A model generated the notes under the pieces. It was given only the letters and a program-made list of their open reading frames with translations, had not been told where the DNA came from and ran no database searches. A program made the translations under genes and the position numbers. Of a stretch of DNA of 10,052 nucleotides, positions 1-10,052 are shown in pieces. Origin of the DNA: an uncultured Flavobacteriales bacterium (lineage in GTDB: Bacteria; Bacteroidota; Bacteroidia; Flavobacteriales; Crocinitomicaceae); the NCBI GenBank assembly GCA_946886545.1, contig CAMPIU010000068.1, positions 1 to 10,052 on the forward strand. Reading direction: 5' to 3'. Every line of letters starts with the position of its first letter. Position 1 is the stretch's first letter.

Positions 1-372
1 CACTCCTGCATCGAACCAAATCCGGTGTTTTTTTGATAACTGAATCCCGGCGTTGGCTTCGTAGATGTTTTTTAAAACTCCCGGTTCGGAACTCAGATTC
101 GCATTGGAATAAGTCCCGGCCATGAACGCAAGGTTCGCCCGGACTCTGTGTTGCTCAAAATTCACTTTGATAAATCCAAGGTTGATTCCCAGTGTATTAT
201 GTCGGTTATGCGAAAACATAAAATCAGGCCGTTCATGGTCACTCGGATTTCCAAAATCATACCCATAATAGGTCTCTAGATATGCACTCACCACAATTTT
301 CTTAAAAACAGAATCTTTCTGGGCCATCAAAGTGGTGCTCATTCCCAACAAACCGAACAACAGTATTTTCAT
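1..372 (-). CDS. Outer-membrane beta-barrel protein, BBP2/OmpL-like porin family (partial, 3' end outside window)
   Basis: The first 124 codons are present, read from ATG at 372 to the window edge without a stop. The N-terminus is a Sec signal peptide (MKILLFGLLGMSTTLMAQ) with probable cleavage before or after the Gln, as is common in Bacteroidota. The mature part begins with YLETYYGYDFGNPSDHERP, followed by HNRHNTLGINLGFIKV and FMAGTYSNANLSSEPG. This alternating beta-strand pattern and the 'HERPDF..SHNRHNT' and 'RVRANLAFMAGTY' wording are what I know from the putative beta-barrel porin-2 (BBP2) family of Bacteroidota. It should sit in the outer membrane as a barrel; the solute is unknown. 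The reverse complement just before the ATG contains CATCTTTG (377-384), one or two changes from the Bacteroidota -7 box, but I found no convincing -33 element. Confidence in an outer-membrane barrel is high, in a specific transport role low. Confidence 0.82.
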   Translation of the reverse strand, partial: MKILLFGLLGMSTTLMAQKDSVFKKIVVSAYLETYYGYDFGNPSDHERPDFMFSHNRHNTLGINLGFIKVNFEQHRVRANLAFMAGTYSNANLSSEPGVLKNIYEANAGIQLSKKHRIWFDAGV

Positions 373-408
373 ACTGCAAAGATGCAACAAAGAACAATTT
401 CATCACAG

Positions 409-425
409 ACTCTTGAAAAAAGAGT
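409..425 (-). terminator. Weak hairpin downstream of the calpain-like gene
   Basis: ACTCTT (409-414) and AAGAGT (420-425) form a perfect 6-bp stem around a 5-nt loop, 35 nt past the stop codon at 460. On the minus strand it is not followed by a clear U-tract, so it is only a possible terminator or transcript-end hairpin. Confidence 0.2.
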
Positions 426-459
426 GTAGAGTATCGGTTTACTTCTAGAGTTAAGTAAT

Positions 460-2232
460 CTATATCGTTTCATCCGGATCAGTCTTTTGTCTTTTTGCAG
501 GATTTTCGACCGATTGGCTTGCTTGCAGCGCCTGTTGAATCTGCTGTTGCTGGAACTGAGCGAATTGCTGCTGGATCAGTTGCAGCTGCTGGAGCAATTG
601 CGCCTGGACCTGATCAGGCTGCATCTGTATTTGCTGTACTGCCTGTACCTGTTGCTGCTGGTTGAAAAGCTGAACCTGCTGGTGCGCTTGCTGAACAGCG
701 TGTGCCAATTGCGGCGGAGCCTGTAAAGTTTGAGGTGGTGCCTGGACTACTTGAGGTGGCGGTGCCTGTACGTTTTGCTGCGGTGCCTGATCCTGAGAAA
801 CCTGCTGCGGTGGAGCCTGGGGCTGTTGCACAGGTGCTTGCGGAACAGGAAGATAATCTATTCTTGCAATCACATCATCGACATCTGTTTGGGGAATCGG
901 TGCTGTGGGATCTTTTTTTCCGTGTGGATTCTTTAATACCAGATTTTGTACGGAAGATGCCGGGAGAATAATATAGACATGATCTTCGATTAAACCCAGG
1001 AAAGCCGCGTTCATCAGAGCATCATCATTTGCATCGACCGACAAATTCTGACTGCTTACCGCATCTTTTTTGGTGGTAGCAGTAGCTGCAGCATCGCTCC
1101 CAACAGCCAGGATCATATTCGCATATGGTTGAGAACCAGGCCCGGGAGGCATTAACGTTTGAGGCTGTGTGTGACCGAGCAGCTGGAATCCGATATTGGC
1201 ATCTTTGTCGTCCAGTCCCTGGTAGGAACCTCCTCCGTAACTCTGTGCAGCAGCTTTTTCAAGCAAGGAGGGCCACACCGGTACCGGATGTCCTCCTGAT
1301 ATCTTCGCGGGCACATCCAATTGCTGCTGAGCATATAAAAATTCCTTTTGCCCTGTACCTATATCCAGGATTGGAATCCAGCCGGATATCGTAACCAATT
1401 GTGTCTGTGCTCCGATTCCGGTATTGATATTTACCGTGTTTCCCAGTTCTACCTCGTAATCCTGTCCGTTCTGCCGGATCAGCGAAGCAATGTGGCTGTT
1501 CCAATGATTCGACATCGTCATGGCCATCATCGGAGCAATGAGCCAGCAATCCCCCAATTCGCCCTGGGTAATATCTTTAGCATCAGGTGCCTGGTTATTG
1601 TAAGCATTTCCGCTCACTTCCAGGAGTTCTGTATTGTTCCGGTCATTCAGAATGTCAGTCGGTTTAGGATGAGGATCACGGGCAAGTTCAGGTTCCGGGT
1701 CATAATATGCATCATTCCCAACCGGGATGTAAAAATCGGTTCCCGGCGGAGTGAGCGGCTGAAGCTGCATATACTTCATGTCGCCGGTGAATCCAACCAC
1801 CAAATACACCTTCCCTACCTCTGTCTTCGGGAATCCGCTGGACCTGGCATGTGGAGACACGTTTCCGGTATTGGTCCTATGTCTTCCCTCCTCTTCGTGA
1901 TTGACCCGGTAAGCTGTTCCCTGGTTCAGTTGTAATTGAACCGGAGCTTCGCTTGTTTGTTCTGCTTCGTTTTGCTGTTCTGTCTCCACGGATTCAACCG
2001 GTTTGGTAAAGCGTACTTTTTTACCAATTGCATTCTCACCCGCCAACTTTTGCAGCTGTACGATCTTTTGTGCTTTCGGACTTTCGTTAGCAGTTTTCTG
2101 TAATTTTCTCTGAACGATTGCATCCGGACGATTATCCAGAAGCTGAAAAGGAGCTTGTTCGGCATTTCCTTTAGATTGCTTGTCTTCCGATTGATTGCCT
2201 GAGGCTTGTTCCTTATTAACGTGAGTGTACAT
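460..2232 (-). CDS. Putative eCIS-type cargo: leader + calpain-like (C2) cysteine protease + Gln/Pro-rich tail with NLS-like end
   Basis: 590 residues from ATG 2232. Residues about 27-65 contain FQLLDNRPDAIVQRKLQ and repeats of the 'NxSPxxxxxxQLQ' type; I recognise this from the N-termini of DUF4157-type proteins and other cargo near extracellular contractile injection systems. No DUF4157 HEXXH is seen. A calpain-type core follows: GELGDCWLIA puts the catalytic Cys at 229, WPSLLEKAAAQSYGGGSYQG (about 321-340) matches the calpain 'W..LLEKA.A..G.Y' block, and HVYIILP...LKNPHG supplies His418 and Asn435. About residues 456-575 are 40% Gln, with QAPP-type repeats and then a Q-rich helix. The end contains PAKRQKTD, similar to a monopartite nuclear-localisation signal. 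There is no signal peptide or type IX sorting domain. The frame is open upstream to a TTG at 2307, but that stretch looks non-coding and contains the candidate promoter. Predicted role: injected or released protease; target unknown. Confidence 0.8.
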   Translation of the reverse strand: MYTHVNKEQASGNQSEDKQSKGNAEQAPFQLLDNRPDAIVQRKLQKTANESPKAQKIVQLQKLAGENAIGKKVRFTKPVESVETEQQNEAEQTSEAPVQLQLNQGTAYRVNHEEEGRHRTNTGNVSPHARSSGFPKTEVGKVYLVVGFTGDMKYMQLQPLTPPGTDFYIPVGNDAYYDPEPELARDPHPKPTDILNDRNNTELLEVSGNAYNNQAPDAKDITQGELGDCWLIAPMMAMTMSNHWNSHIASLIRQNGQDYEVELGNTVNINTGIGAQTQLVTISGWIPILDIGTGQKEFLYAQQQLDVPAKISGGHPVPVWPSLLEKAAAQSYGGGSYQGLDDKDANIGFQLLGHTQPQTLMPPGPGSQPYANMILAVGSDAAATATTKKDAVSSQNLSVDANDDALMNAAFLGLIEDHVYIILPASSVQNLVLKNPHGKKDPTAPIPQTDVDDVIARIDYLPVPQAPVQQPQAPPQQVSQDQAPQQNVQAPPPQVVQAPPQTLQAPPQLAHAVQQAHQQVQLFNQQQQVQAVQQIQMQPDQVQAQLLQQLQLIQQQFAQFQQQQIQQALQASQSVENPAKRQKTDPDETI

Positions 2233-2258
2233 GCACGGGTAATTGTGAATAGTTGTTT

Positions 2259-2288
2259 CGAATATACTGATTCCTTGGAAAAATACAA
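2259..2288 (-). promoter_or_regulatory. Candidate Bacteroidota-type promoter for the calpain-like gene
   Basis: On the minus strand TTG (2286-2288), a 19-nt spacer and TATATTCG (2259-2266) match the Bacteroidota primary-sigma consensus TTG-N19/21-TAnnTTTG with one mismatch. Transcription would begin about 20-25 nt before ATG 2232. This argues against the TTG start at 2307 and suggests the gene is transcribed separately from mlaD, which ends 93 nt upstream. Confidence 0.45.
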
Positions 2289-2325
2289 GCGGGATTTTAC
2301 TATCCAAGAGATTACATCCAATAGT

Positions 2326-3276
2326 TTATTTCTGTTTCTTTTTCTTTGCTTTAAACGGCCACCGAAGTTTCAGGTTCCTCATACTCTCGTCAAAGTCACC
2401 CGCTCCATTTTCAACATGAAGCAATACAGAGTCTAATCGCTTAATATATTCCGGATCTGTGAACAAAACCCGAACCAAACCCTGCCCGTTTTTCAGATTT
2501 TCAGACATCGCTTGAAAATTTCCTGAAATGATGGCTAAACTATCCGTGAGTGTCCGGATATTGACAATCGTATGCTCGAAGTTATTTCTCAAAGCCGTGT
2601 CTTTCAGAAGTAATCCTGCAGTCCCTTTACCCTCATTTACCGAACGAACAATATTCCTGAGATCACCTGTAATAACCGCTGTATTTTCGCCGGTATACCT
2701 GAAATGGGCAATTGCTGACTGAACATTCTCTGATACCGTTGGATCAAGCAACAGATTCAGTAATGATTGGTCGTTGTTCAGTTTCCCTGAAAGCGCTCTT
2801 AAATCTGCTGATATGGCGTTTAAATTTTGATTAGTGTTGTTCATAGTCCGAAGGGTAGCATCCATTTCTACGGTTTTCAAGCTTAGCAGTTTGTCTCCAT
2901 CTTTTATAATGGATGCATTGCTGTGGGATGATTGAATGTTAATGAGTTTATTTCCCATTAAACCATCCGTACCAATGACCGCTACCGCATCCTTCCGGAT
3001 AAACCGGCAGGCATCAGAATCAATCGACATCAGGACCATAACGGATGTATCGCTCATTATTTCGATCTGGTCAACCGTGCCGACATCAATTCCTGCAAAA
3101 CGCACGCTGTTTCCTTTCCGGAGACCGTTGACATTATAAAATTCGGCTTTAATCAAGACCGTGGAACCGAATAGCCTCTGTTTGCTGCCAACATAATAAA
3201 GTGCCGCAATGATTCCAAGGGAACCGATCAACACTATAATTCCTAACCTGATATTTCTACTTGTTTCATTTTTCAT
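2326..3276 (-). CDS. mlaD: MlaD-family MCE-domain lipid-transport protein
   Basis: 316 residues. One N-terminal membrane helix (about 10-29) anchors the protein. A single MCE/MlaD domain follows (about 38-116), recognisable by VNGLRKGNSVRFAGIDVGTV and by the later GTDGLMGNKLINI block. Residues about 140-305 form a long polar helical region with repeated 'L..I...L..I...L' spacing, and the protein ends in a basic WPFKAKKKKQK tail. In Mla-type systems this protein forms a hexameric ring on the permease and passes phospholipid or other hydrophobic substrates between membranes. The start ATG overlaps the MlaF stop by four bases (ATGA), implying translational coupling. It is longer than E. coli MlaD (about 180 aa) because of the helical tail, which is usual for Bacteroidota versions. 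The substrate and direction of transport cannot be read from sequence. Confidence 0.92.
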   Translation of the reverse strand: MKNETSRNIRLGIIVLIGSLGIIAALYYVGSKQRLFGSTVLIKAEFYNVNGLRKGNSVRFAGIDVGTVDQIEIMSDTSVMVLMSIDSDACRFIRKDAVAVIGTDGLMGNKLINIQSSHSNASIIKDGDKLLSLKTVEMDATLRTMNNTNQNLNAISADLRALSGKLNNDQSLLNLLLDPTVSENVQSAIAHFRYTGENTAVITGDLRNIVRSVNEGKGTAGLLLKDTALRNNFEHTIVNIRTLTDSLAIISGNFQAMSENLKNGQGLVRVLFTDPEYIKRLDSVLLHVENGAGDFDESMRNLKLRWPFKAKKKKQK

Positions 3277-4043
3277 GGCTCAAAAAATTTTCGCACAGCT
3301 TCATCCCCGGATTGCCGGAGTTGCTCGTAAGTACCTTCTTCATAACATCTTCCCTCGATCAGCATAATAATCTTTTCTGCAACCCTTTTCACACAATTCA
3401 TATCATGAGATATGATAATCGAAGAAGTTTGGTATTTGCGCCCGAGTTCAACAATGAGATCACTAATTTCCCTTGCTGTAATGGGATCGAGTCCGGTTGT
3501 CGGTTCATCGTATAGTATAATTTCTGGTTTAAGGATAAGCGTTCTCGCCAAAGCAATTCTTTTCCGCATTCCTCCCGAAAGTTCAGACGGCATCATATCT
3601 GCGGTGTGAGGTAAACCTACATTGGCAAGCGCCTCCTCGACAAGCAGATTCACTTCTTTTTCCTGCATTTGCCTGCGGTGTCTTCGCAAGGGAAATTCCA
3701 GGTTCTCCCTGACCGTCATAGAATCGTACAATGCAGTGCTTTGAAAAAGGAATCCTACTCTGGCACGCACTTCATCCATTTCATGAAGTCCGATTCCCGA
3801 CATATTCCGCTGCAACACATGGATAACTCCCGAGTCCGGTTTAATCAAACCGATAATGCATTTAATTAAAACGGATTTTCCGGAACCGGATCTCCCAAGA
3901 ATAACAATATTCTGACCTTTCTCCAGGATCATACTGAAATCCCGAAGTACCTTATTGTTCCCGAATGATTTGCAGACTTTTTCCAGGCGAACGACAATGC
4001 CGCTGTTTACCGGATCCTCAATATGTTCGTTTTGTAAACTCAT
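3273..4043 (-). CDS. mlaF: MlaF-type ABC transporter ATP-binding protein
   Basis: 256 residues, a full-length single nucleotide-binding domain. The Walker A motif is GRSGSGKS (50-57), the Q-loop Gln is at 101 in FLFQSTALYDSMTVRENLEFPL, the signature is LSGGMRKRIALAR (from 155), Walker B is ILYDEPTTGLDP (from 176), and the H-loop His is at 213 (IISHDM). The 'LFQ..ALYDSMTV.EN..FPL' and 'SGGM.KR.ALAR' wording is characteristic of the Mla/MCE branch of ABC ATPases rather than of drug or metal exporters. It powers the MlaE permease from the cytoplasmic face. Its ATG overlaps the MlaE stop (ATGA, 4040-4043), and its own stop overlaps the MlaD start in the same way. All catalytic motifs are intact. 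Confidence 0.94.
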   Translation of the reverse strand: MSLQNEHIEDPVNSGIVVRLEKVCKSFGNNKVLRDFSMILEKGQNIVILGRSGSGKSVLIKCIIGLIKPDSGVIHVLQRNMSGIGLHEMDEVRARVGFLFQSTALYDSMTVRENLEFPLRRHRRQMQEKEVNLLVEEALANVGLPHTADMMPSELSGGMRKRIALARTLILKPEIILYDEPTTGLDPITAREISDLIVELGRKYQTSSIIISHDMNCVKRVAEKIIMLIEGRCYEEGTYEQLRQSGDEAVRKFFEP

Positions 4044-4804
4044 ACCAATTGCAACAAATCTGTAATCTGAACAGCTACCAGATCAAGTATAAATACCAGT
4101 AATGAGGAAATAACTACTGCAGCGTTAGCCGACCAGCCAACACCTTCCGTTCCCCGTTGTGTTGTGTAACCTTTATAGCAGCCGACTATGCCAATTGCAA
4201 AACCGAAAAAGAACGTTTTTACAATTGATGGGATAATATCTCCGAAAGAGAGAGAATCGAGTACTTGTGCCCAATAAAGATTCCAGCTGATCGAACCGCG
4301 TATATTTACACCAAGATAACCTCCGTAGAGTGAAATTGCATCTGCAAAAACAACCAGTAAAGGAACCATTAATGTAACTGCGGTTACCCGTGTTGCAACC
4401 AAATACTTAAAAGGATTAGTTCCCGAAACCTCCATGGCATCAATCTGTTCGGTCACTTTCATCGAACCAAGTTCAGCCCCGATTCCGGAACCTATCTTTC
4501 CGGCGCAGATTAATGCAGTTATCACCGGAACAATTTCCCGCACAAGAGAAACAGAGATCATTCCCGGCAGCCAGGCTTCGGCTCCAAATTTAACCAGTGT
4601 TGGACGTGACTGGATCGTAATTACCAAACCGATAATAAAGCCGGTTATTATTACAAGTCCCAGAGACTTGTAACCGAGAAAAAAACACTGGCGAAGCATT
4701 TCCTTAAATTCATAACCCTTTCGAAAGGATACCCCGAAAAATCTGAGAGTAAACCGGCTTATATCTCCGATCTCGGTCACAATTCTTTTTAAGTTCTCAG
4801 ACAT
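4040..4804 (-). CDS. mlaE: MlaE-type ABC transporter permease
   Basis: 254 residues, the usual length for this family. Hydrophobic segments lie at about 46-65, 81-100, 140-165, 190-210 and 225-245. The family-defining block is AGKIGSGIGAELGSMKVTEQ continuing to IDAMEV (101-125), and GCYKGYTTQRGTEGVG (208-223) is also typical. It forms the inner-membrane channel of the MCE lipid transporter with MlaF and MlaD, whose genes follow directly. Gene order is permease, ATPase, MCE protein; mlaC, mlaB and mlaA homologues are not present in the window. The ATG at 4804 is 7 nt after the stop of the 121-aa upstream gene, so the four genes very probably form one transcript. Confidence 0.93.
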   Translation of the reverse strand: MSENLKRIVTEIGDISRFTLRFFGVSFRKGYEFKEMLRQCFFLGYKSLGLVIITGFIIGLVITIQSRPTLVKFGAEAWLPGMISVSLVREIVPVITALICAGKIGSGIGAELGSMKVTEQIDAMEVSGTNPFKYLVATRVTAVTLMVPLLVVFADAISLYGGYLGVNIRGSISWNLYWAQVLDSLSFGDIIPSIVKTFFFGFAIGIVGCYKGYTTQRGTEGVGWSANAAVVISSLLVFILDLVAVQITDLLQLV

Positions 4805-4811
4805 GGCGCTA

Positions 4812-5177
4812 TTACTGGGAAATGCTCTTCAGCGCATTGAATTCTTTCAGAGACATTGTATCTGAATCCGTAGTTATCCACGACGATCCATCCAATTTAT
4901 AAACCTCTGCTTTCAGACCAAAAGTATCTCTTAAATAGTCCTTTAGTACTCTAACCGTCATCTCCGGTGTTATAACCAGCATTCCATTATGGTTCTCTGT
5001 TCTGCAATCCCCTACTGTAAAACCACTATTGCGGACTATTTTTTCGGAATGCGGGCCATCTTCAGTATTTGGTTTGGCATAGAATTCAAGTTTCAGGTTC
5101 TTGAATTCATTGCTGAAAAACTCTCGGATAGCGAATACTTTCCGGTGGTTATTGATTTCAATCTGAATAGTTTCCAT
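4812..5177 (-). CDS. Conserved-looking hypothetical protein, first gene of the mla operon
   Basis: 121 residues, soluble, with no signal peptide or membrane helix. It starts METIQIEINNHRKVFAIREFF and contains KLEFYAKPNTEDGPHSEK (about 29-46), a GDCRTENHNGMLVITPEMTV block (about 56-75) and a C-terminal YKLDGSSWITTDSDTMSLKEF stretch. I believe I have seen similar short proteins annotated only as hypothetical in Bacteroidota, but I know no named family. The alternating pattern suggests a small alpha/beta fold. It lies 7 nt before mlaE on the same strand and downstream of a candidate promoter, so a link to the MCE transporter is likely from context; its role there (adaptor, regulator or unrelated) is unknown. 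Confidence 0.75.
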   Translation of the reverse strand: METIQIEINNHRKVFAIREFFSNEFKNLKLEFYAKPNTEDGPHSEKIVRNSGFTVGDCRTENHNGMLVITPEMTVRVLKDYLRDTFGLKAEVYKLDGSSWITTDSDTMSLKEFNALKSISQ

Positions 5178-5261
5178 TTTGTTTGTTTTTATGATATATC
5201 GGATGATCTTGAATCCGGCAAGTAAGCTGAACTCCAGTTACAATCGGTTAAATTTCAATAC

Positions 5262-5292
5262 CAAAAGTCATGAATACTGACCACCAAAACAA
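5262..5292 (-). promoter_or_regulatory. Candidate promoter of the 121-aa gene / mlaEFD operon
   Basis: On the minus strand TTG (5290-5292), a 20-nt spacer and GACTTTTG (5262-5269) match TTG-N19/21-TAnnTTTG with one mismatch. The 5' leader would be about 75-80 nt. It is the best match in the region, but it was found by eye and such motifs occur by chance. Confidence 0.35.
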
Positions 5293-5407
5293 TGACCCTA
5301 GTCAGACTGCAAGTTGACTTTCCGCATGTAAATAACAATTCAATCCGGAGCCCTTCAGTTAATTCAATTCAAATACCATCATATACAAGTGAATGATAGA
5401 CAAATAA

Positions 5408-5462
5408 TTGACTTATGTCACTGATTTATGATAAGCGTCATATTCATTGATCCCGCAGATCA
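5408..5462 (+). promoter_or_regulatory. Three phased inverted repeats upstream of the rhodanese gene (possible CRP/FNR-type operators)
   Basis: There are three dyads: TTGAC-TTAT-GTCAC (5408-5421), TATGA-N6-TCATA (5427-5442) and TGATC-N5-GATCA (5448-5462). Their centres are 20 and 20.5 bp apart. The first differs from the FNR consensus TTGAT-N4-ATCAA at only two positions, and the second has the 5-6-5 layout of CRP-type sites. They lie upstream of a possible -7 box at 5464-5471. A regulator of the CRP/FNR family is a reasonable guess for the neighbouring redox genes. Confidence 0.35.
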
Positions 5463-5497
5463 CTTTCTTTGTAAAGACAACATGAAATTCAAACGAA

Positions 5498-6265
5498 ATG
5501 AAAATAAGAACCCTACTTTTTATTTTATTACTGGCCGCAACAAGTGTATATCTTTTATTGTCAAAAAAAGATATACTGGCCCCAGAAGATTTCGCAGAAG
5601 CTCTCAAACGAGGAGAGAATACTATTCTCATTGATCTACGGTCCGTCAATGAATTTTCAAACGGGCATATTTTCGGTGCCACTCATATCGATTTCGGGTT
5701 GTCAACATACGAATGGCGTTTCGCTGAACTTGACACAGAACAAAACCTGTTCATCTATTGCAAAGATGGGAAACGAAGCAAAGAAGCTGCCATATATCTG
5801 GAATCCCAGGGTTTCAATTCCGTAACGGTACTTAAAGGAGGTCTGAAAGCCTGGTTGAATGAAGGATATACCTTAACACCGGAAGAGTTGATTCCACCTA
5901 GGGAATTAACATTTGTGGGCTTTAACAGAATCCTGGACATGGAGCATTTGGTAATCGTAGATTTTTATTTGCCAGGTGATCAGAATTGCAGAACGATTGA
6001 ACCGGTGCTGGACGAACTTGCAATTACCTACAGTGGGAAAATTAAAATTCTGAGAATTGACATGGATCATTACACCTACTTGGCTGCTAAAATGGAAATA
6101 GAATACACACCTACCCTGCAGCTTTATGAATATGGCAATCTGTGTGAGGTACTTAAAGGAATAACTAATAAAAAGCGTATCGAAGACGCTTTTCGCCTGA
6201 AAGAATATACGGCAACTGCTTTTTTTAATCAAAAACGAAAAAAAACTGAAAATGAGTCTGAATAA
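5498..6265 (+). CDS. Membrane-anchored rhodanese and thioredoxin-like fusion protein
   Basis: 255 residues. The N-terminus (3-21) is a hydrophobic signal anchor or signal peptide, placing the rest outside the cytoplasm. Residues about 27-125 are a rhodanese domain: ILIDLRSVNEFSNGHIFGA is the substrate-side block and CKDGKRS (88-94) is the active-site loop with the persulfide-carrying Cys88. Residues about 135-235 are thioredoxin-like: VIVDFYLPGDQNCRTIEPVL aligns with the usual 'DFWA.WC..C..' region, and YTPTLQLYEYG holds the cis-Pro loop (Pro205). The CXXC is reduced to one Cys (164), so classic disulfide exchange is unlikely. The short basic tail overlaps the next gene by 14 nt. Plausible roles are sulfane-sulfur handling or redox sensing in the periplasm. 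The start at 5498 fits the hydrophobic N-terminus; an ATG at 5482 is in another frame. Confidence 0.85.
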   Translation: MKIRTLLFILLLAATSVYLLLSKKDILAPEDFAEALKRGENTILIDLRSVNEFSNGHIFGATHIDFGLSTYEWRFAELDTEQNLFIYCKDGKRSKEAAIYLESQGFNSVTVLKGGLKAWLNEGYTLTPEELIPPRELTFVGFNRILDMEHLVIVDFYLPGDQNCRTIEPVLDELAITYSGKIKILRIDMDHYTYLAAKMEIEYTPTLQLYEYGNLCEVLKGITNKKRIEDAFRLKEYTATAFFNQKRKKTENESE

Positions 6266-6416
6266 AGAATGGCATTTGAAGAATAAAATGCCCAAGAACG
6301 CAACTGAAATCGAGCGGGAAAACTGGCATCTGGAACACGAGAAGAATTGTGACTGTCGCCCGATGCCTGCCAGATTAAAGGAAAAAATACAAAAAAAATC
6401 AAAACCTGAATCTTAA
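6252..6416 (+). CDS. Small 54-aa conserved-looking hypothetical protein
   Basis: The reading frame from ATG 6252 to TAA 6414-6416 gives a basic, His- and Trp-containing protein beginning MSLNKEWHLKNKMPKNATEI, with WHLEHEKNCDCRPMP in the middle and a Lys-rich end. The pattern 'WH..N.MPKNAT...R..WH.EH..NC.CR' is one I recall from very short uncharacterised Bacteroidota proteins, so I treat it as real. It overlaps the end of the rhodanese/thioredoxin gene by 14 nt in a different frame, suggesting translational coupling. The two Cys (33 and 35) and several His residues could bind metal or a thiol ligand, but no function is known to me. An in-frame Met13 is a possible alternative start. Confidence 0.72.
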   Translation: MSLNKEWHLKNKMPKNATEIERENWHLEHEKNCDCRPMPARLKEKIQKKSKPES

Positions 6417-6461
6417 GATTCCTATTTACAAGGAGATAACAAACCTATAATACTTGAAAAA

Positions 6462-7451
6462 ATGAAAATGATAATCTATAGCTTTCATGCATTTGAACAG
6501 CCATACTTCGAAAAGGTCAACAGGAACAACCATCAGTTATTATTTTCGGAACAGAGGCTTTCTGAAAAAACCGTTTCACTATGTGAAGGGTTCGATGCTG
6601 TAAGTTTATTTACCAGCGACGATGCTTCTGCTCCGATACTCGAACTCTTGCATCAAAAAGGAATTCGTTTCATCCTGCTGCGTTCTGCAGGGTACAATCA
6701 TGTTGACCTGCTAAAAGCAAAACAGCTCGGTATGCGGGTGGCGCGTGTCCCTGCCTATTCTCCGTTTTCTGTTGCTGAACATGCTGTAGCTCTGATGCTT
6801 GCACTCAACCGGAAACTGATTCACTCACATTCCCGTGTTATGGAACAAAATTTCTTACTGGATGGCTTGACCGGTTTCGATATGAATGGAAAAACTGTCG
6901 GAATAATGGGTACCGGAAAGATCGGTTCTACCATTGCACGTATTCTTCATGGTTTCGGTTGTCGTTTACTGGCCTTTGATCAAGAAGAAAACGAGGAGAT
7001 CAAACAGCGCTACCAGGTAGAGTATACTAATCGCGAAACACTTTATAAGATGTCGGATATCATTACCCTGCATCTCCCGCTTAATGAGCAAACGCATTAC
7101 ATCATCGACCGAAAGGATATCGCCGGAATGAAACCGGGAGTAATGCTGATCAATACAGCACGTGGTGGACTGGTAAACTCCCTTGAGGTAATCCGGTCAT
7201 TAAAAAACGGACACATGGGTTATTTTGGGATGGATGTCTACGAAAATGAATCTGATTTGTTCTTCGGAAACCATTCACAGGATATCATCCGGGATGACAT
7301 ATTTGCCCGGCTTATGACCTTCCCGAATGTGCTGATAACCGGTCACCAGGGATTCCTGACCGATACTGCTTTGAAAAACATTTGCGAAACAACTCTATAT
7401 AACCTGGATTGTTTTGCAAAAGGAATTGCCTCCGGAAATGATCTAATCTGA
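6462..7451 (+). CDS. ldhA: D-lactate dehydrogenase-type 2-hydroxyacid dehydrogenase
   Basis: 329 residues, the usual length of NAD-dependent D-lactate dehydrogenases, reducing pyruvate to D-lactate in the cytosol. The Rossmann motif GTGKIG is at 150-155 with Asp173 at the end of the second strand, favouring NAD over NADP. Catalytic residues of the family are seen: Arg234 in NTARGGLVNS, an acidic residue in GMDVYENESDLFF (Glu261 or Glu263), and His295 in TGHQGFLT. RSAGYNHVDL (74-83) and AYSPFSVAEHAVALMLALNR are typical of the D-LDH subgroup. ATG 6462 is taken as the start; Met3 is possible. An AAGGAGAT sequence at 6430-6437 lies too far upstream (24 nt) to be a normal ribosome-binding site. 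It follows the small gene by 45 nt and is probably co-transcribed, which fits fermentation or low-oxygen metabolism. A related 2-hydroxyacid substrate cannot be excluded. Confidence 0.9.
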   Translation: MKMIIYSFHAFEQPYFEKVNRNNHQLLFSEQRLSEKTVSLCEGFDAVSLFTSDDASAPILELLHQKGIRFILLRSAGYNHVDLLKAKQLGMRVARVPAYSPFSVAEHAVALMLALNRKLIHSHSRVMEQNFLLDGLTGFDMNGKTVGIMGTGKIGSTIARILHGFGCRLLAFDQEENEEIKQRYQVEYTNRETLYKMSDIITLHLPLNEQTHYIIDRKDIAGMKPGVMLINTARGGLVNSLEVIRSLKNGHMGYFGMDVYENESDLFFGNHSQDIIRDDIFARLMTFPNVLITGHQGFLTDTALKNICETTLYNLDCFAKGIASGNDLI

Positions 7452-7464
7452 GTAGAAGAAAAAC

Positions 7465-7875
7465 TCAATCCTGCTGTTTCAGAAAGTAGCGGATAAGGTC
7501 CGTTGTGGTCACTATGCCCCTCACCTGCTTATCGCGTGTAACTACAACTGAGCTGAACTCGCCCTTTGCCAGGAGTGCACCAACATCTGCAATCGAAGTA
7601 TCCTCGCTGACTGAAACGGGATTGAGTGACATAACGTCTGCAACCGTTTTCACTGAATAAACGGGTTCGTTATCATCAAGTGTTGCATCGCTGATCGCAC
7701 GCATATAATCAACCAGGCTCACCATACCGACCAGTACATTGTTTTCCGTAACCGGAATATGACGATGAAAACTATCTTTCTCGTACAGGTGTTTGATAAC
7801 CAGTATTTTTTGTTGAGGACCGACACATTCAACGGGCGCGGTCATGATGGTCGATACAGGTAATTGCAAATCCAT
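7465..7875 (-). CDS. Two-CBS-domain protein
   Basis: 136 residues made almost only of a CBS pair. CBS1 covers about 8-62 (STIMTAPVECVGPQQKI ... HIPVTENNVLVGMVSLVDYM) and CBS2 about 78-133 (VADVMSLNPVSVSEDTSIAD ... SVVVTRDKQVRGIVTTTDLI). Such stand-alone Bateman modules bind adenine nucleotides such as AMP, ATP or S-adenosylmethionine and often sense energy state; there is no output domain here. It converges on the dehydrogenase gene with only 13 nt between the stops. The 242-bp divergent region upstream is shared with the zinc-ribbon gene and has several dyads. A stress or energy-sensing role is inferred from the family and neighbours. The ligand is unknown. Confidence 0.9.
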   Translation of the reverse strand: MDLQLPVSTIMTAPVECVGPQQKILVIKHLYEKDSFHRHIPVTENNVLVGMVSLVDYMRAISDATLDDNEPVYSVKTVADVMSLNPVSVSEDTSIADVGALLAKGEFSSVVVTRDKQVRGIVTTTDLIRYFLKQQD

Positions 7876-7959
7876 GCGTATATTATTTAATTAAAAAACT
7901 GTAGGGAAAATTCCCCGGTCCGTGCAGCGTACTTTTTGTTCTATGAAAGAATTCATGCA

Positions 7960-8005
7960 TGATAAGCCGGTGGAACAATATCATCCCAAGTGCTGATACT
8001 TATCA
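7960..8005. promoter_or_regulatory. TGATA/TATCA inverted-repeat cluster in the divergent region
   Basis: TGATA occurs at 7960-7964 and 7994-7998, and TATCA at 7979-7983 and 8001-8005. The last pair forms a TGATA-CT-TATCA dyad. A further GGGAA-AA-TTCCC dyad is at 7904-7915. They lie between the CBS gene and the zinc-ribbon gene and may be operator half-sites. No clean TTG/TAnnTTTG promoter was found on either strand here. Confidence 0.25.
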
Positions 8006-8017
8006 TCTTTTCACTGT

Positions 8018-8056
8018 GTTAAATGTAGGAAATTAGCTCAATGAAAACAATAACAA
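8018..8056 (+). repeat. Copy 1 of a shared leader-like sequence
   Basis: The stretch 8029-8056 matches 9412-9439 at 25 of 28 positions, including 18 identical bases in a row (GAAATTAGCTCAATGAAA), with weaker similarity back to 8018. Here the ATG opens only MKTITN before a stop, whereas in copy 2 the same ATG starts a 130-codon gene. Confidence 0.5.
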
Positions 8057-8117
8057 ATTGACACATATTTGTTGTGTAAGGAAGGATATTATAAATATAA
8101 CGTAACAACAGAAAAAG

Positions 8118-8384
8118 ATGAAAGAATATAAATTCTGTCAAAGCTGCGGTTATCCGTTAAAAAAGGATACAAAAGGCAGTACGGAGAAAGACGGATCACG
8201 AAACAATAAGTATTGTTCCATGTGTTACCAAAACGGAGAATTTCTTACTCCGCCCGATGTTGACACTGCAAAAAAAATGCAGACCTTTTGTATCACGGAA
8301 ATGAAGAAGGCCGGAATGAATGGTTTATTTGCATGGCTGGCTACCCGGTCAATTCCAAAACTGGAGCGATGGAAACAAAAATGA
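8118..8384 (+). CDS. Small zinc-ribbon protein (putative zinc ribbon domain, Zn_ribbon_2-like)
   Basis: 88 residues. Two CxxC knuckles, Cys7/Cys10 (FCQSCGYPLKKD) and Cys33/Cys36 (YCSMCYQNGEFLTPP), form a four-Cys zinc site. The layout 'CQSCG.PL...T..DGS....YC..CYQ.GEF..P' followed by a helix and a 'PKLERWK' end matches the family known as putative zinc ribbon domain. These proteins are small and cytosolic and have no settled function; they are sometimes fused to transcriptional regulators. It is transcribed away from the CBS gene and is followed after 44 nt by the toroid-fold gene. The GAAAAAG before the ATG may be a weak ribosome-binding site. Domain call is firm, role unknown. Confidence 0.88.
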   Translation: MKEYKFCQSCGYPLKKDTKGSTEKDGSRNNKYCSMCYQNGEFLTPPDVDTAKKMQTFCITEMKKAGMNGLFAWLATRSIPKLERWKQK

Positions 8385-8428
8385 TCACCTGAATGCAAGT
8401 CATCTGCAAAAAATCATGATTAAATGCC

Positions 8429-9379
8429 ATGAACAAAGAACAAATAATAGAATGGTTACTCCAGGGTGATGTTTCCATACAATACCAGGTTTACCGTGAT
8501 TTGCTGGGAATCGAAAAAAAAGAACTTCAACAAAGCATAGCCTGCGAAGGATGGGGAAGAAAATACTTGTCTCTACGGAATGCCGATGGACATTGGGGTG
8601 ACAGATTCTATCAGCCAAAATGGATTTCGACCCACTATACCCTGCTCGATCTTTGCAATTTGTGTCTTTCCCCGGATAACGAAACAGTCCGCGAAACAAT
8701 CGCTTTGGTTTTACAGGATGGTAAGGCAGAAGATGGAGGAATTCCACTCGGACCGTCCACCCTGAAGTACAGCGATCTTTGTGTTAATGGAATGTTTTTA
8801 AACTATGCTTCTTATTTTAATACACCTGAAAAAGATTTGTATTCCATTGTGGACTCGATACTGAATGAGCGTATGCCCGATGGTGGGTTTAACTGCAGGA
8901 CCACAAGAAGCGGCGCAAGTCACAGCTCTCTTCATACGACGATCTCAGTATCGGAAGGATTGTATGAGTTCCTGAAAGCCGGATATACTTACCGCGCGGA
9001 TGCCATAAAGGATGCCCTAAAAAGTTCTGTGGAATTTATCCTGCAACACCAGTTATTTATCTCGGACCGAACCGGCCTGATTATCCATAAAGATTTTCTG
9101 AAATTAACCTACCCCTGCAGATGGAAATACGATATTCTGCGGGCCCTGGATTGGTTTCAATATGCGGGAATCGAATGGGACGACAGAATGAAAGCAGCAA
9201 TAGAAGTTCTTCTCGAAAAAAGAAACAAAGCAGGAAGCTGGAACCTGCAGGCTGCTCATCCGGGTCAGGTACATTTCAAAATGGAGGAAACAGGGAAACC
9301 GAGCAGATGGATCACGCTGAGAGCTTTGCGGGTATTGAAACAATTTGATCAGGAAAATGCAAATCATCCTGCTCCATGA
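8429..9379 (+). CDS. Alpha/alpha-toroid protein, squalene-cyclase/prenyltransferase-like fold, function unknown
   Basis: 316 residues, with no signal peptide or membrane segment. The sequence is built from helical repeats with Gly- and Trp-containing turns like the QW motifs of terpenoid cyclases: DGHWGDRFYQPKW (53-65), EDGGIPLG (101-108), DGGFNCR (151-157) and AGSWNL (268-273). This marks the six-hairpin toroid shared by squalene cyclases, prenyltransferases and polysaccharide-acting toroid enzymes. The DxDD catalytic motif of class II cyclases is not seen, and the protein is about half the length of a squalene-hopene cyclase, so it is not a complete triterpene cyclase. Conserved-looking His, Asp and Cys residues (SDLCVNGMFL, SHSSLHTT, YPCRWKYDILRAL) could line a central pocket. 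I recall similar Bacteroidota and Firmicutes proteins annotated as squalene-cyclase-like or hypothetical. ATG 8429 is the first in-frame start. Confidence 0.78.
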   Translation: MNKEQIIEWLLQGDVSIQYQVYRDLLGIEKKELQQSIACEGWGRKYLSLRNADGHWGDRFYQPKWISTHYTLLDLCNLCLSPDNETVRETIALVLQDGKAEDGGIPLGPSTLKYSDLCVNGMFLNYASYFNTPEKDLYSIVDSILNERMPDGGFNCRTTRSGASHSSLHTTISVSEGLYEFLKAGYTYRADAIKDALKSSVEFILQHQLFISDRTGLIIHKDFLKLTYPCRWKYDILRALDWFQYAGIEWDDRMKAAIEVLLEKRNKAGSWNLQAAHPGQVHFKMEETGKPSRWITLRALRVLKQFDQENANHPAP

Positions 9380-9395
9380 TATTGATCATTTTTTT
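9376..9395 (+). terminator. Weak intrinsic terminator after the toroid gene
   Basis: ATGAT-ATTG-ATCAT (9376-9389) is a perfect but AT-rich 5-bp hairpin overlapping the stop codon, and its 3' arm runs directly into seven T residues (9389-9395). The U-tract fits an intrinsic terminator; the weak stem lowers confidence. Confidence 0.3.
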
Positions 9396-9400
9396 CGGAC

Positions 9401-9439
9401 GTTAAGTATCAGAAATTAGCTCAATGAAAGCAAAAACAT
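9401..9439 (+). repeat. Copy 2 of a shared leader-like sequence
   Basis: This is the counterpart of 8018-8056 and spans the leader and first five codons of the phasin-like gene. The identity extends across the start codon (CTCAATGAAA) and upstream into non-coding bases, so it may be a common regulatory leader or the trace of a duplication. Confidence 0.5.
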
Positions 9440-9816
9440 TAATCGAGTTGGCAGCCTTGTCTGCAAACCTGTACGCTATCTCCAGGGAGACACATCTCAT
9501 GGAGAAGCTCAAAGACCTCTCGGAGCAGGGGCGCGATAAACTGAACGAGTTTATGTCGGAAAAAAGTGTGGACGAACATGGAAACGAAATCCCCTTTTCG
9601 GAAAGATTGCTGCTGAAAGCAAAAGAAGCCCGGGAAGAGTTGGAAATCAGGATCGGTGAAATGGTCACGGCCTTTTACGAGAAGGTAAATATTGCTCATA
9701 CCGACAAGTTAAAAGAGCTGGAAAACAAACTGGACGAGATAAGTAAAAATCTGGCATTGGCGGAAGCACGTATCAATCACCTCGAAAATAAAGGTGGCAC
9801 GGATGGCGCTGTTTGA
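9424..9816 (+). CDS. Helical phasin-like hypothetical protein
   Basis: 130 residues, highly charged and almost entirely helical. The N-terminal part (KTLIELAALSANLYAISRE) is amphipathic. The middle has LMEKLKDLSEQGRDKLNEFM, and residues about 93-123 form a coiled coil with Leu/Ile heptads (KLKELENKLDEISKNLALAE). Length and charge pattern resemble phasins and other granule- or lipid-associated helical proteins, but no specific signature proves this. Its stop lies 14 nt inside the following UbiB-like gene, so the two are translated together, and the pair probably works jointly. Phasin family membership is tentative; 'coiled-coil hypothetical protein' is the safe name. There are no Cys residues and no signal peptide. 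Confidence 0.78.
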   Translation: MKAKTLIELAALSANLYAISRETHLMEKLKDLSEQGRDKLNEFMSEKSVDEHGNEIPFSERLLLKAKEAREELEIRIGEMVTAFYEKVNIAHTDKLKELENKLDEISKNLALAEARINHLENKGGTDGAV

Positions 9817-10052
9817 TTCCATACGGCGACGATACCGGTCCTTCGTTCGGTTTAATCATATCCTTCGCATTTTTGTACGTTACGGTTACAAGGATATTGT
9901 TTCCTACCTGATCGAAACCAGGAGATTTCCCCTGCTTCAAAAGCTGATTCCAAGAGCTTCACGAAGAGATGCCCGGAAGTATAGCAAGTATGAAAAAATG
10001 CGCCTGGTATGTGAGGAACTCGGACCGACATTTATCAAATTCGGGCAGATTC
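9803..10052 (+). CDS. UbiB/AarF (ABC1) atypical kinase family protein (partial, 5' end only)
   Basis: Eighty-three codons run from ATG 9803 to the window edge. The N-terminus (MALFDSIRRRYRSFVRFNHI) is basic and is followed by LRIFVRYGYKDIVSYLIETR. EELGPTFIKFGQI then gives the KxGQ motif (Lys79 to Gln82), diagnostic of the UbiB/ABC1 protein-kinase-like family. In that family KxGQ belongs to the N-terminal extension that covers the active site, and members act on ubiquinone or other isoprenoid-lipid metabolism and distribution as ATPases. The kinase core and any C-terminal membrane helices lie outside the window. AAAGGTGG at 9791-9798 lies just before the ATG and may serve as ribosome-binding site. 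The 14-nt overlap with the phasin-like gene suggests coupling. Confidence 0.85.
   Translation, partial: MALFDSIRRRYRSFVRFNHILRIFVRYGYKDIVSYLIETRRFPLLQKLIPRASRRDARKYSKYEKMRLVCEELGPTFIKFGQI

Follow-up and report, generated by a model that had tools for sequence, protein, structure and literature searches.

The window considered here is a stretch of 10,052 nucleotides from an uncultured bacterium of the Flavobacteriales, family Crocinitomicaceae (GenBank assembly GCA_946886545.1, contig CAMPIU010000068.1, positions 1 to 10,052). On its reverse strand lies a gene for a calpain-type protease, intact over 590 aa with no internal stop, and flanked by mlaD and a BBP2 porin gene. The features of the gene and its product are listed below.

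460..2232, minus strand: calpain-type protease gene, 590 aa (ORF translation; ATG start at 2232, stop at 460)
484..495, minus strand: NLS-like basic cluster KRQK, residues 580-583 (K[KR]x[KR] pattern)
508..846, minus strand: Q-rich tail free of K and R, residues 463-575 (composition)
847..1680, minus strand: calpain (C2) protease domain, residues 185-462 (Pfam, alignment, structure model)
928..930, minus strand: N435, predicted third triad residue (invariant in 15/15)
979..981, minus strand: H418, predicted general base (invariant in 15/15)
1546..1548, minus strand: C229 in GDCW, predicted nucleophile (invariant in 15/15)
1564..1566, minus strand: Q223, predicted oxyanion-hole glutamine (invariant in 15/15)
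1681..1941, minus strand: small beta domain, tentatively SH3-like, residues 98-184 (model and Foldseek)
1942..2232, minus strand: hydrophilic N-terminal leader region, residues 1-97 (alignment, hydrophilicity)
2035..2148, minus strand: leader motif FQLLDNRPDAIVQRKLQ ... QLQKLAG, residues 29-66 (alignment)
2245..2264, minus strand: upstream box TATTCGAAACAACTATTCAC, 20 nt, starting 32 nt upstream of the A of the ATG (exact match)

Elsewhere in the window, positions 5498-6265 encode one protein in which a thioredoxin domain follows a rhodanese domain, and positions 8429-9379 an ORF of 316 aa with no Pfam family above cut-off and only a weak squalene-hopene cyclase-like match.

The sole Pfam family found on the 590-aa protein is Peptidase_C2 (PF00648; residues 215-440, E=2.2e-9, 37.3 bits against a cut-off of 23.8). 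This confirms the calpain assignment made in a first-pass annotation of the sequence, which had also placed GDCW with C229, the WPSLLEKA block (beginning at residue 320), H418 and N435 correctly. PF00648 is the only Pfam match at E<=1; PF13699 (eCIS_core/DUF4157) is absent, just as the annotation had said of DUF4157. No NCBIfam family and none of the anti-phage defence models matched the protein. Q223, C229, E325-K326-A327, H418, N435, P436 and G438 are invariant across an alignment of 15 calpains, which comprises the window protein, six full-length relatives, the distant member P0009 and seven other calpains from Bacteroidota; the catalytic blocks also align with those of calpain-3. The protein is a member of peptidase family C2, and proteolysis is predicted from the conserved residues. 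As for the structure, a calpain fold was recovered, although in a low-confidence model of the protease domain, which resembles calpain cores. For the small beta domain another model reaches a mean pLDDT of about 82 (residues 108-177) but is poor elsewhere (pLDDT 51 in the protease part); the Foldseek matches of this model concern the beta domain, the best being the SH3 domains of Csk and Abl at E 0.07 and up, and none attains E 0.001.

A search of 5.8 billion proteins gave seven matches, the window's own protein among them, and a search with the core alignment gave nine, adding two; both scored only candidates sharing most words with the query. The relative P0003 shares 83% identity with the window calpain in the family alignment and 77% in local alignment, and is encoded in a Fluviicola MAG (G001), the nearest relative of the window. 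The contig that holds it (L001) is collinear with the window, in BLASTN pieces of 76-85% identity. The family occurs in 1/14 genomes of the genus and the core in 1/395 genomes of the phylum, in both cases this MAG, and the family is therefore rare. Plasmids yielded no relatives, and viral contigs one weak locus in one search and none in another. Between window and relative the calpain gene has a dN/dS of 0.12 (0.07 in the protease domain), compared with 0.08 for mlaD, 0.05 for mlaF and 0.02 for mlaE; this purifying selection indicates that the gene is maintained.

Leader and its association with contractile injection systems

The leader motif begins with FQLLDNRPDAIVQRKLQ at residues 29-45. 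Through about its first hundred positions alone, the family profile matches 12 non-calpain ORFs (E 8e-8 to 7e-4) from 7 of the 14 Fluviicola genomes. A leader model built from the alignment of these 12 ORFs, with calpain rows excluded, in turn recognises the leader of the relative's calpain at E=1.9e-16, and the window leader aligns with the latter; the matches in both directions show that the leader is not a chance resemblance. Pfam, run on 10 of the 12, found eCIS_core (PF13699) in five, the Stv domain in two and no family in three, and in the five eCIS_core proteins the leader stands N-terminal of that domain. The first-pass annotation had likened the N-terminus to that of cargo of extracellular contractile injection systems (eCIS), a comparison that these results uphold. 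The first 35 residues of the window protein are also of a hydrophilicity matched by just 1.4% of 346 background ORFs, and greater hydrophilicity is a reported trait of the N-termini of eCIS-associated toxins (EATs; PMC11297309, in the part available).

Across the order, 13/249 genomes contain leaders recognised by the model (E 0.001) and 23/249 contain Pvc16_N, the marker by which alone, rather than by a whole locus, eCIS presence was judged in most of them. All 13 leader-positive genomes carry Pvc16_N (Fisher p=7e-16), as against 10 of the remaining 236, and without the six drawn genomes that had served to build the model the count is 7/7 (p=2e-9); these p-values are optimistic, as 8 of the 13 belong to one genus and are kin. 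The five leader genomes outside the genus likewise carry the marker. Conversely, 10 of the 23 Pvc16_N genomes show no leader at E 0.001.

Type IX systems are common in Bacteroidota, so that the leader might be an export tag for that or another route, such as type VI, which merely co-occurs with eCIS. DUF4157 does sometimes occur in type VI effectors (PMC11297309, accessible part). Against such a route stand the distribution of Pvc16_N just given and the position of the leader in front of eCIS_core in 5/10 ORFs, as in the cargo of AlgoCIS, whose tube is filled by proteins with a disordered N-terminus and DUF4157 (PMC8894135, in the part consulted); we regard export by another system as very improbable.

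Among the leader-bearing ORFs, L032, L033 and L036 (372-379 aa) also have the upstream box and share a segment MPDW...GILLYYYF that is membrane-helix-like; L033, the one scanned, showed no Pfam family, and the three are possibly a new cargo family. L007, L009 and L012 are leader-bearing as well, and the two scanned, L007 and L009, match the Stv domain without eCIS_core. The start of the calpain relative P0007 presumably resembles another leader type of DUF4157 proteins.

Calpains and eCIS loci in Bacteroidota

Contig C10 of the nearest relative contains genes for Pvc16_N, a sheath (Phage_sheath_1C 2e-11; Phage_sheath_1 below its own cut-off), two gp19 tubes, CIS_tube, a Phage_base_V and GPD hub, gp25, a CIS_TMP tape measure, an AAA+ ATPase and two eCIS_core proteins. 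One eCIS_core protein of this region bears a colicin-type DNase domain. Intervening ORFs of 1110, 632 and 243 aa matched no family, and one of 237 aa lay outside the scan. The calpain gene of this genome is on another contig, C1, and it stands beside mlaEFD as in the window. By analogy with this relative, an eCIS is predicted for the window's own genome. According to the available part of PMC11297309, 88% of EATs are encoded at a distance of up to ten genes; such proximity is usual for cargo and not required.

Peptidase_C2 was found in 6/395 genomes of the phylum, 3/249 of the order and 4/395 of the class, eight distinct genomes in all. Pvc16_N is present in 8/8 of these and in 3/20 calpain-free controls, which were the head of the phylum draw. 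Fisher tests gave 4e-4 for the phylum draw (6/6 vs 3/20) and 7e-4 for the order draw (3/3 vs 20/246), with G001 counted in both. In two genomes eCIS_core and calpain are fused in this order, namely G078 (PF13699 4e-30, PF00648 1e-21) and G549 (PF13699 1e-30, PF00648 3e-25). The G078 fusion (L045, C65:93349-94992) lies between a Pvc16 gene (86690-87211, with a sheath gene) and a PAAR gene (103175-103693), 6 kb from the former and 8 kb from the latter; beyond the sheath, tube- and baseplate-like ORFs were read by eye only. In L045 a calpain is thus linked directly, by gene position, to a contractile system. With the cargo-type leader, the restriction of leader and calpain to marker-bearing genomes in the samples, and the fusions, the earlier suggestion of an injected effector gains support.

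The link is not uniform at the protein level. The calpain of G001 has the modelled leader, that of G012 (L050) a start that looks leader-like only to the eye and is not listed by the model, and those of G026, G225, G231 and G322, four of the eight genomes, show no eCIS mark on the protein. Furthermore, Bacteroides calpains bear a discoidin domain according to a 2015 survey (PMC4631099, main text), so not all calpains of Bacteroidota fit the eCIS link. L044, L046 and L047 (from G225, G322 and G026) represent a second, leaderless calpain type of 433-447 aa in genomes with Pvc16_N. L043 (G231:C49), from a genome that also carries Pvc16_N, is a calpain within a long protein, next to which lie other large ORFs of repetitive appearance.

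Upstream box and basic C-terminus

Two features unmentioned in the first-pass annotation are new here, the upstream box and the Q-rich tail with its basic end. The box, TATTCGAAACAACTATTCAC, has a chance expectation of 0.02 when as many as 3 mismatches are allowed. Window and relative agree in all 41 bases preceding the ATG, while the surrounding aligned DNA differs by about 15%. The pattern TATTCGAAANNACTATTCAC, with at most 2 mismatches, has 13 matches in the 14 genomes of the genus, compared with 4 for the reversed pattern. Seven of the 13 sit 27-32 nt before the ATG of leader-bearing genes, three of which (L032, L033 and L036) had no part in reading the pattern; the other six are located within or close to unrelated genes, or away from any gene. 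The leader genes L007 and L012 have the box with one base less spacing, and L008, L011, L013, L015 and L016 lack it. The box may serve some of the cargo genes in common, as a promoter or as a leader-RNA element. As a control element of the particle genes it was rejected, since the 40 kb surrounding the eCIS genes of the relative contain no copy of it even when 3 mismatches are allowed.

The calpain gene follows mlaD on the same strand by 93 bp (95 bp in the relative), and the gene order is alike in both genomes, as would be expected if a housekeeping protease of the producer were co-transcribed with mlaEFD and acted on envelope lipid transport. The gap after mlaD, however, holds the box that is common to scattered leader genes, together with the 41 bases unchanged between the two species; the leader is of the cargo type, and the patchy spread (1/14 for the family in the genus, 1/395 for the core in the phylum) is unlike that of a housekeeping gene. 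Weakened by leader, box and distribution, a role in the mla operon appears very unlikely.

From residue 464 to the C-terminus 39% of the residues are Q, and K and R occur solely at 580, 581 and 583, within the basic end NPAKRQKTDPDETI. K[KR]x[KR] is found in the last 16 aa of 7/7 full-length family members, the window protein among them, despite the poor alignment of their tails; in the background the count is 16/394 ORFs of the relative, its calpain included. The pattern was found in 0/2 of the distant hits (P0009 and P0010) and in 0/15 other cargo or calpain ORFs read, some of which may have been truncated at the ends of their loci. More than 25% Q in the last 110 residues is seen in the relative's calpain alone among the 394 ORFs. 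Tail and basic end would suit a spacer that carries a nuclear localisation signal. MlaD of the window has a lysine run at its end too; the basic pattern by itself therefore proves little, and the basic end could be due to chance.

If so, the same eCIS cargo might be antibacterial and injected into bacteria, a variant that differs from our preferred reading in the target. Antibacterial eCIS cargo exists (PMC8213781, accessible part), and the DNase domain on the relative's eCIS_core protein is of a colicin type. No candidate immunity gene adjoins the calpain gene, whose neighbours are mlaD and the BBP2 porin gene, and the NLS-like end is kept in all seven full-length members while the tail varies; we therefore consider a bacterial target possible but rather unlikely.

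Proposed role and comparison with known systems

We conclude, with a probability of roughly 0.8, that the window calpain is an eCIS cargo protease. The best reading is an orphan cargo; in the relative, its gene and the eCIS locus lie apart. Its hydrophilic leader would be read by the loading machinery, an AAA+ ATPase of the Pvc15 type, as similarity and co-occurrence suggest, and the calpain would enter the tube of particles that are encoded by an eCIS locus at another place in the genome. Upon contraction of the particle on a target cell the calpain domain would be released inside, where it would cut proteins of that cell by means of its Cys-His-Asn triad, an activity presumed from the conserved residues. 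In a eukaryotic target, the proteases of this subfamily would probably be brought to the nucleus by their Q-rich tail and terminal basic cluster. Eukaryotic calpains usually act inside cells, and taken with the tail this tips our judgement somewhat towards a eukaryotic cell as the target. A wider proposal can only be tentative: that many calpains of Bacteroidota are contractile-injection effectors, that the present subfamily uses its tail and NLS to reach the nucleus in cells of animals or of eukaryotic microbes, and that scattered cargo genes have a common upstream box.

If true, this would link the role of the rare bacterial calpains with eCIS cargo encoded far from the particle genes. Leader and box would offer a route to a genome-wide search for orphan cargo, and a eukaryotic target, as predicted from the basic end, can be put directly to the test.

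Protease-like domains are already known from eCIS cargo; a calpain would be the new element. None of PMC8213781, PMC11297309 and PMC12210884 uses the term calpain in its main text (term search), and literature searches covering mainly open-access main texts found no calpain cargo under calpain with contractile injection system or eCIS, the papers on the latter pair being judged by titles and abstract openings, and nothing under Fluviicola with contractile injection. Among the papers listed, PMC11125981 names both contractile injection systems and calpain, its calpain being a host protease that cleaves another toxin.

With the bacterial calpains of family C2 (Rawlings 2015, PMC4631099, main text) the window protein shares the C2 fold, the Q, Cys, His and Asn residues and a rare, patchy occurrence, to which it adds the eCIS-type leader, the beta domain and the Q-rich tail with basic end. 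Calpains with a WXG100 domain have already been proposed there as possible exported toxins; the main text contains neither 'injection' nor 'DUF4157' (term search). The N-terminal signal peptides of PVC cargo are 50-70 aa long, disordered and groupable by sequence, and act through Pvc15 (PMC11495950, Evans and Waterfield 2024, available part). The window leader resembles them as a putative N-terminal loading signal, this role being predicted from its sequence, and differs in that a DNRPEAxxQRKxQ consensus can be recognised across proteins of one bacterial order that are unlike in other respects. The closest likeness in architecture is to EATs and to DUF4157/eCIS_core cargo such as Cgo1 and Cgo2 of AlgoCIS, in which a hydrophilic N-terminus is likewise followed by an effector domain; leaders of the window type precede eCIS_core in other Fluviicola proteins, and the nearest relative has an eCIS locus. 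Unlike these, the window protein is without eCIS_core, its gene lies off the eCIS locus, and its effector domain is a calpain.
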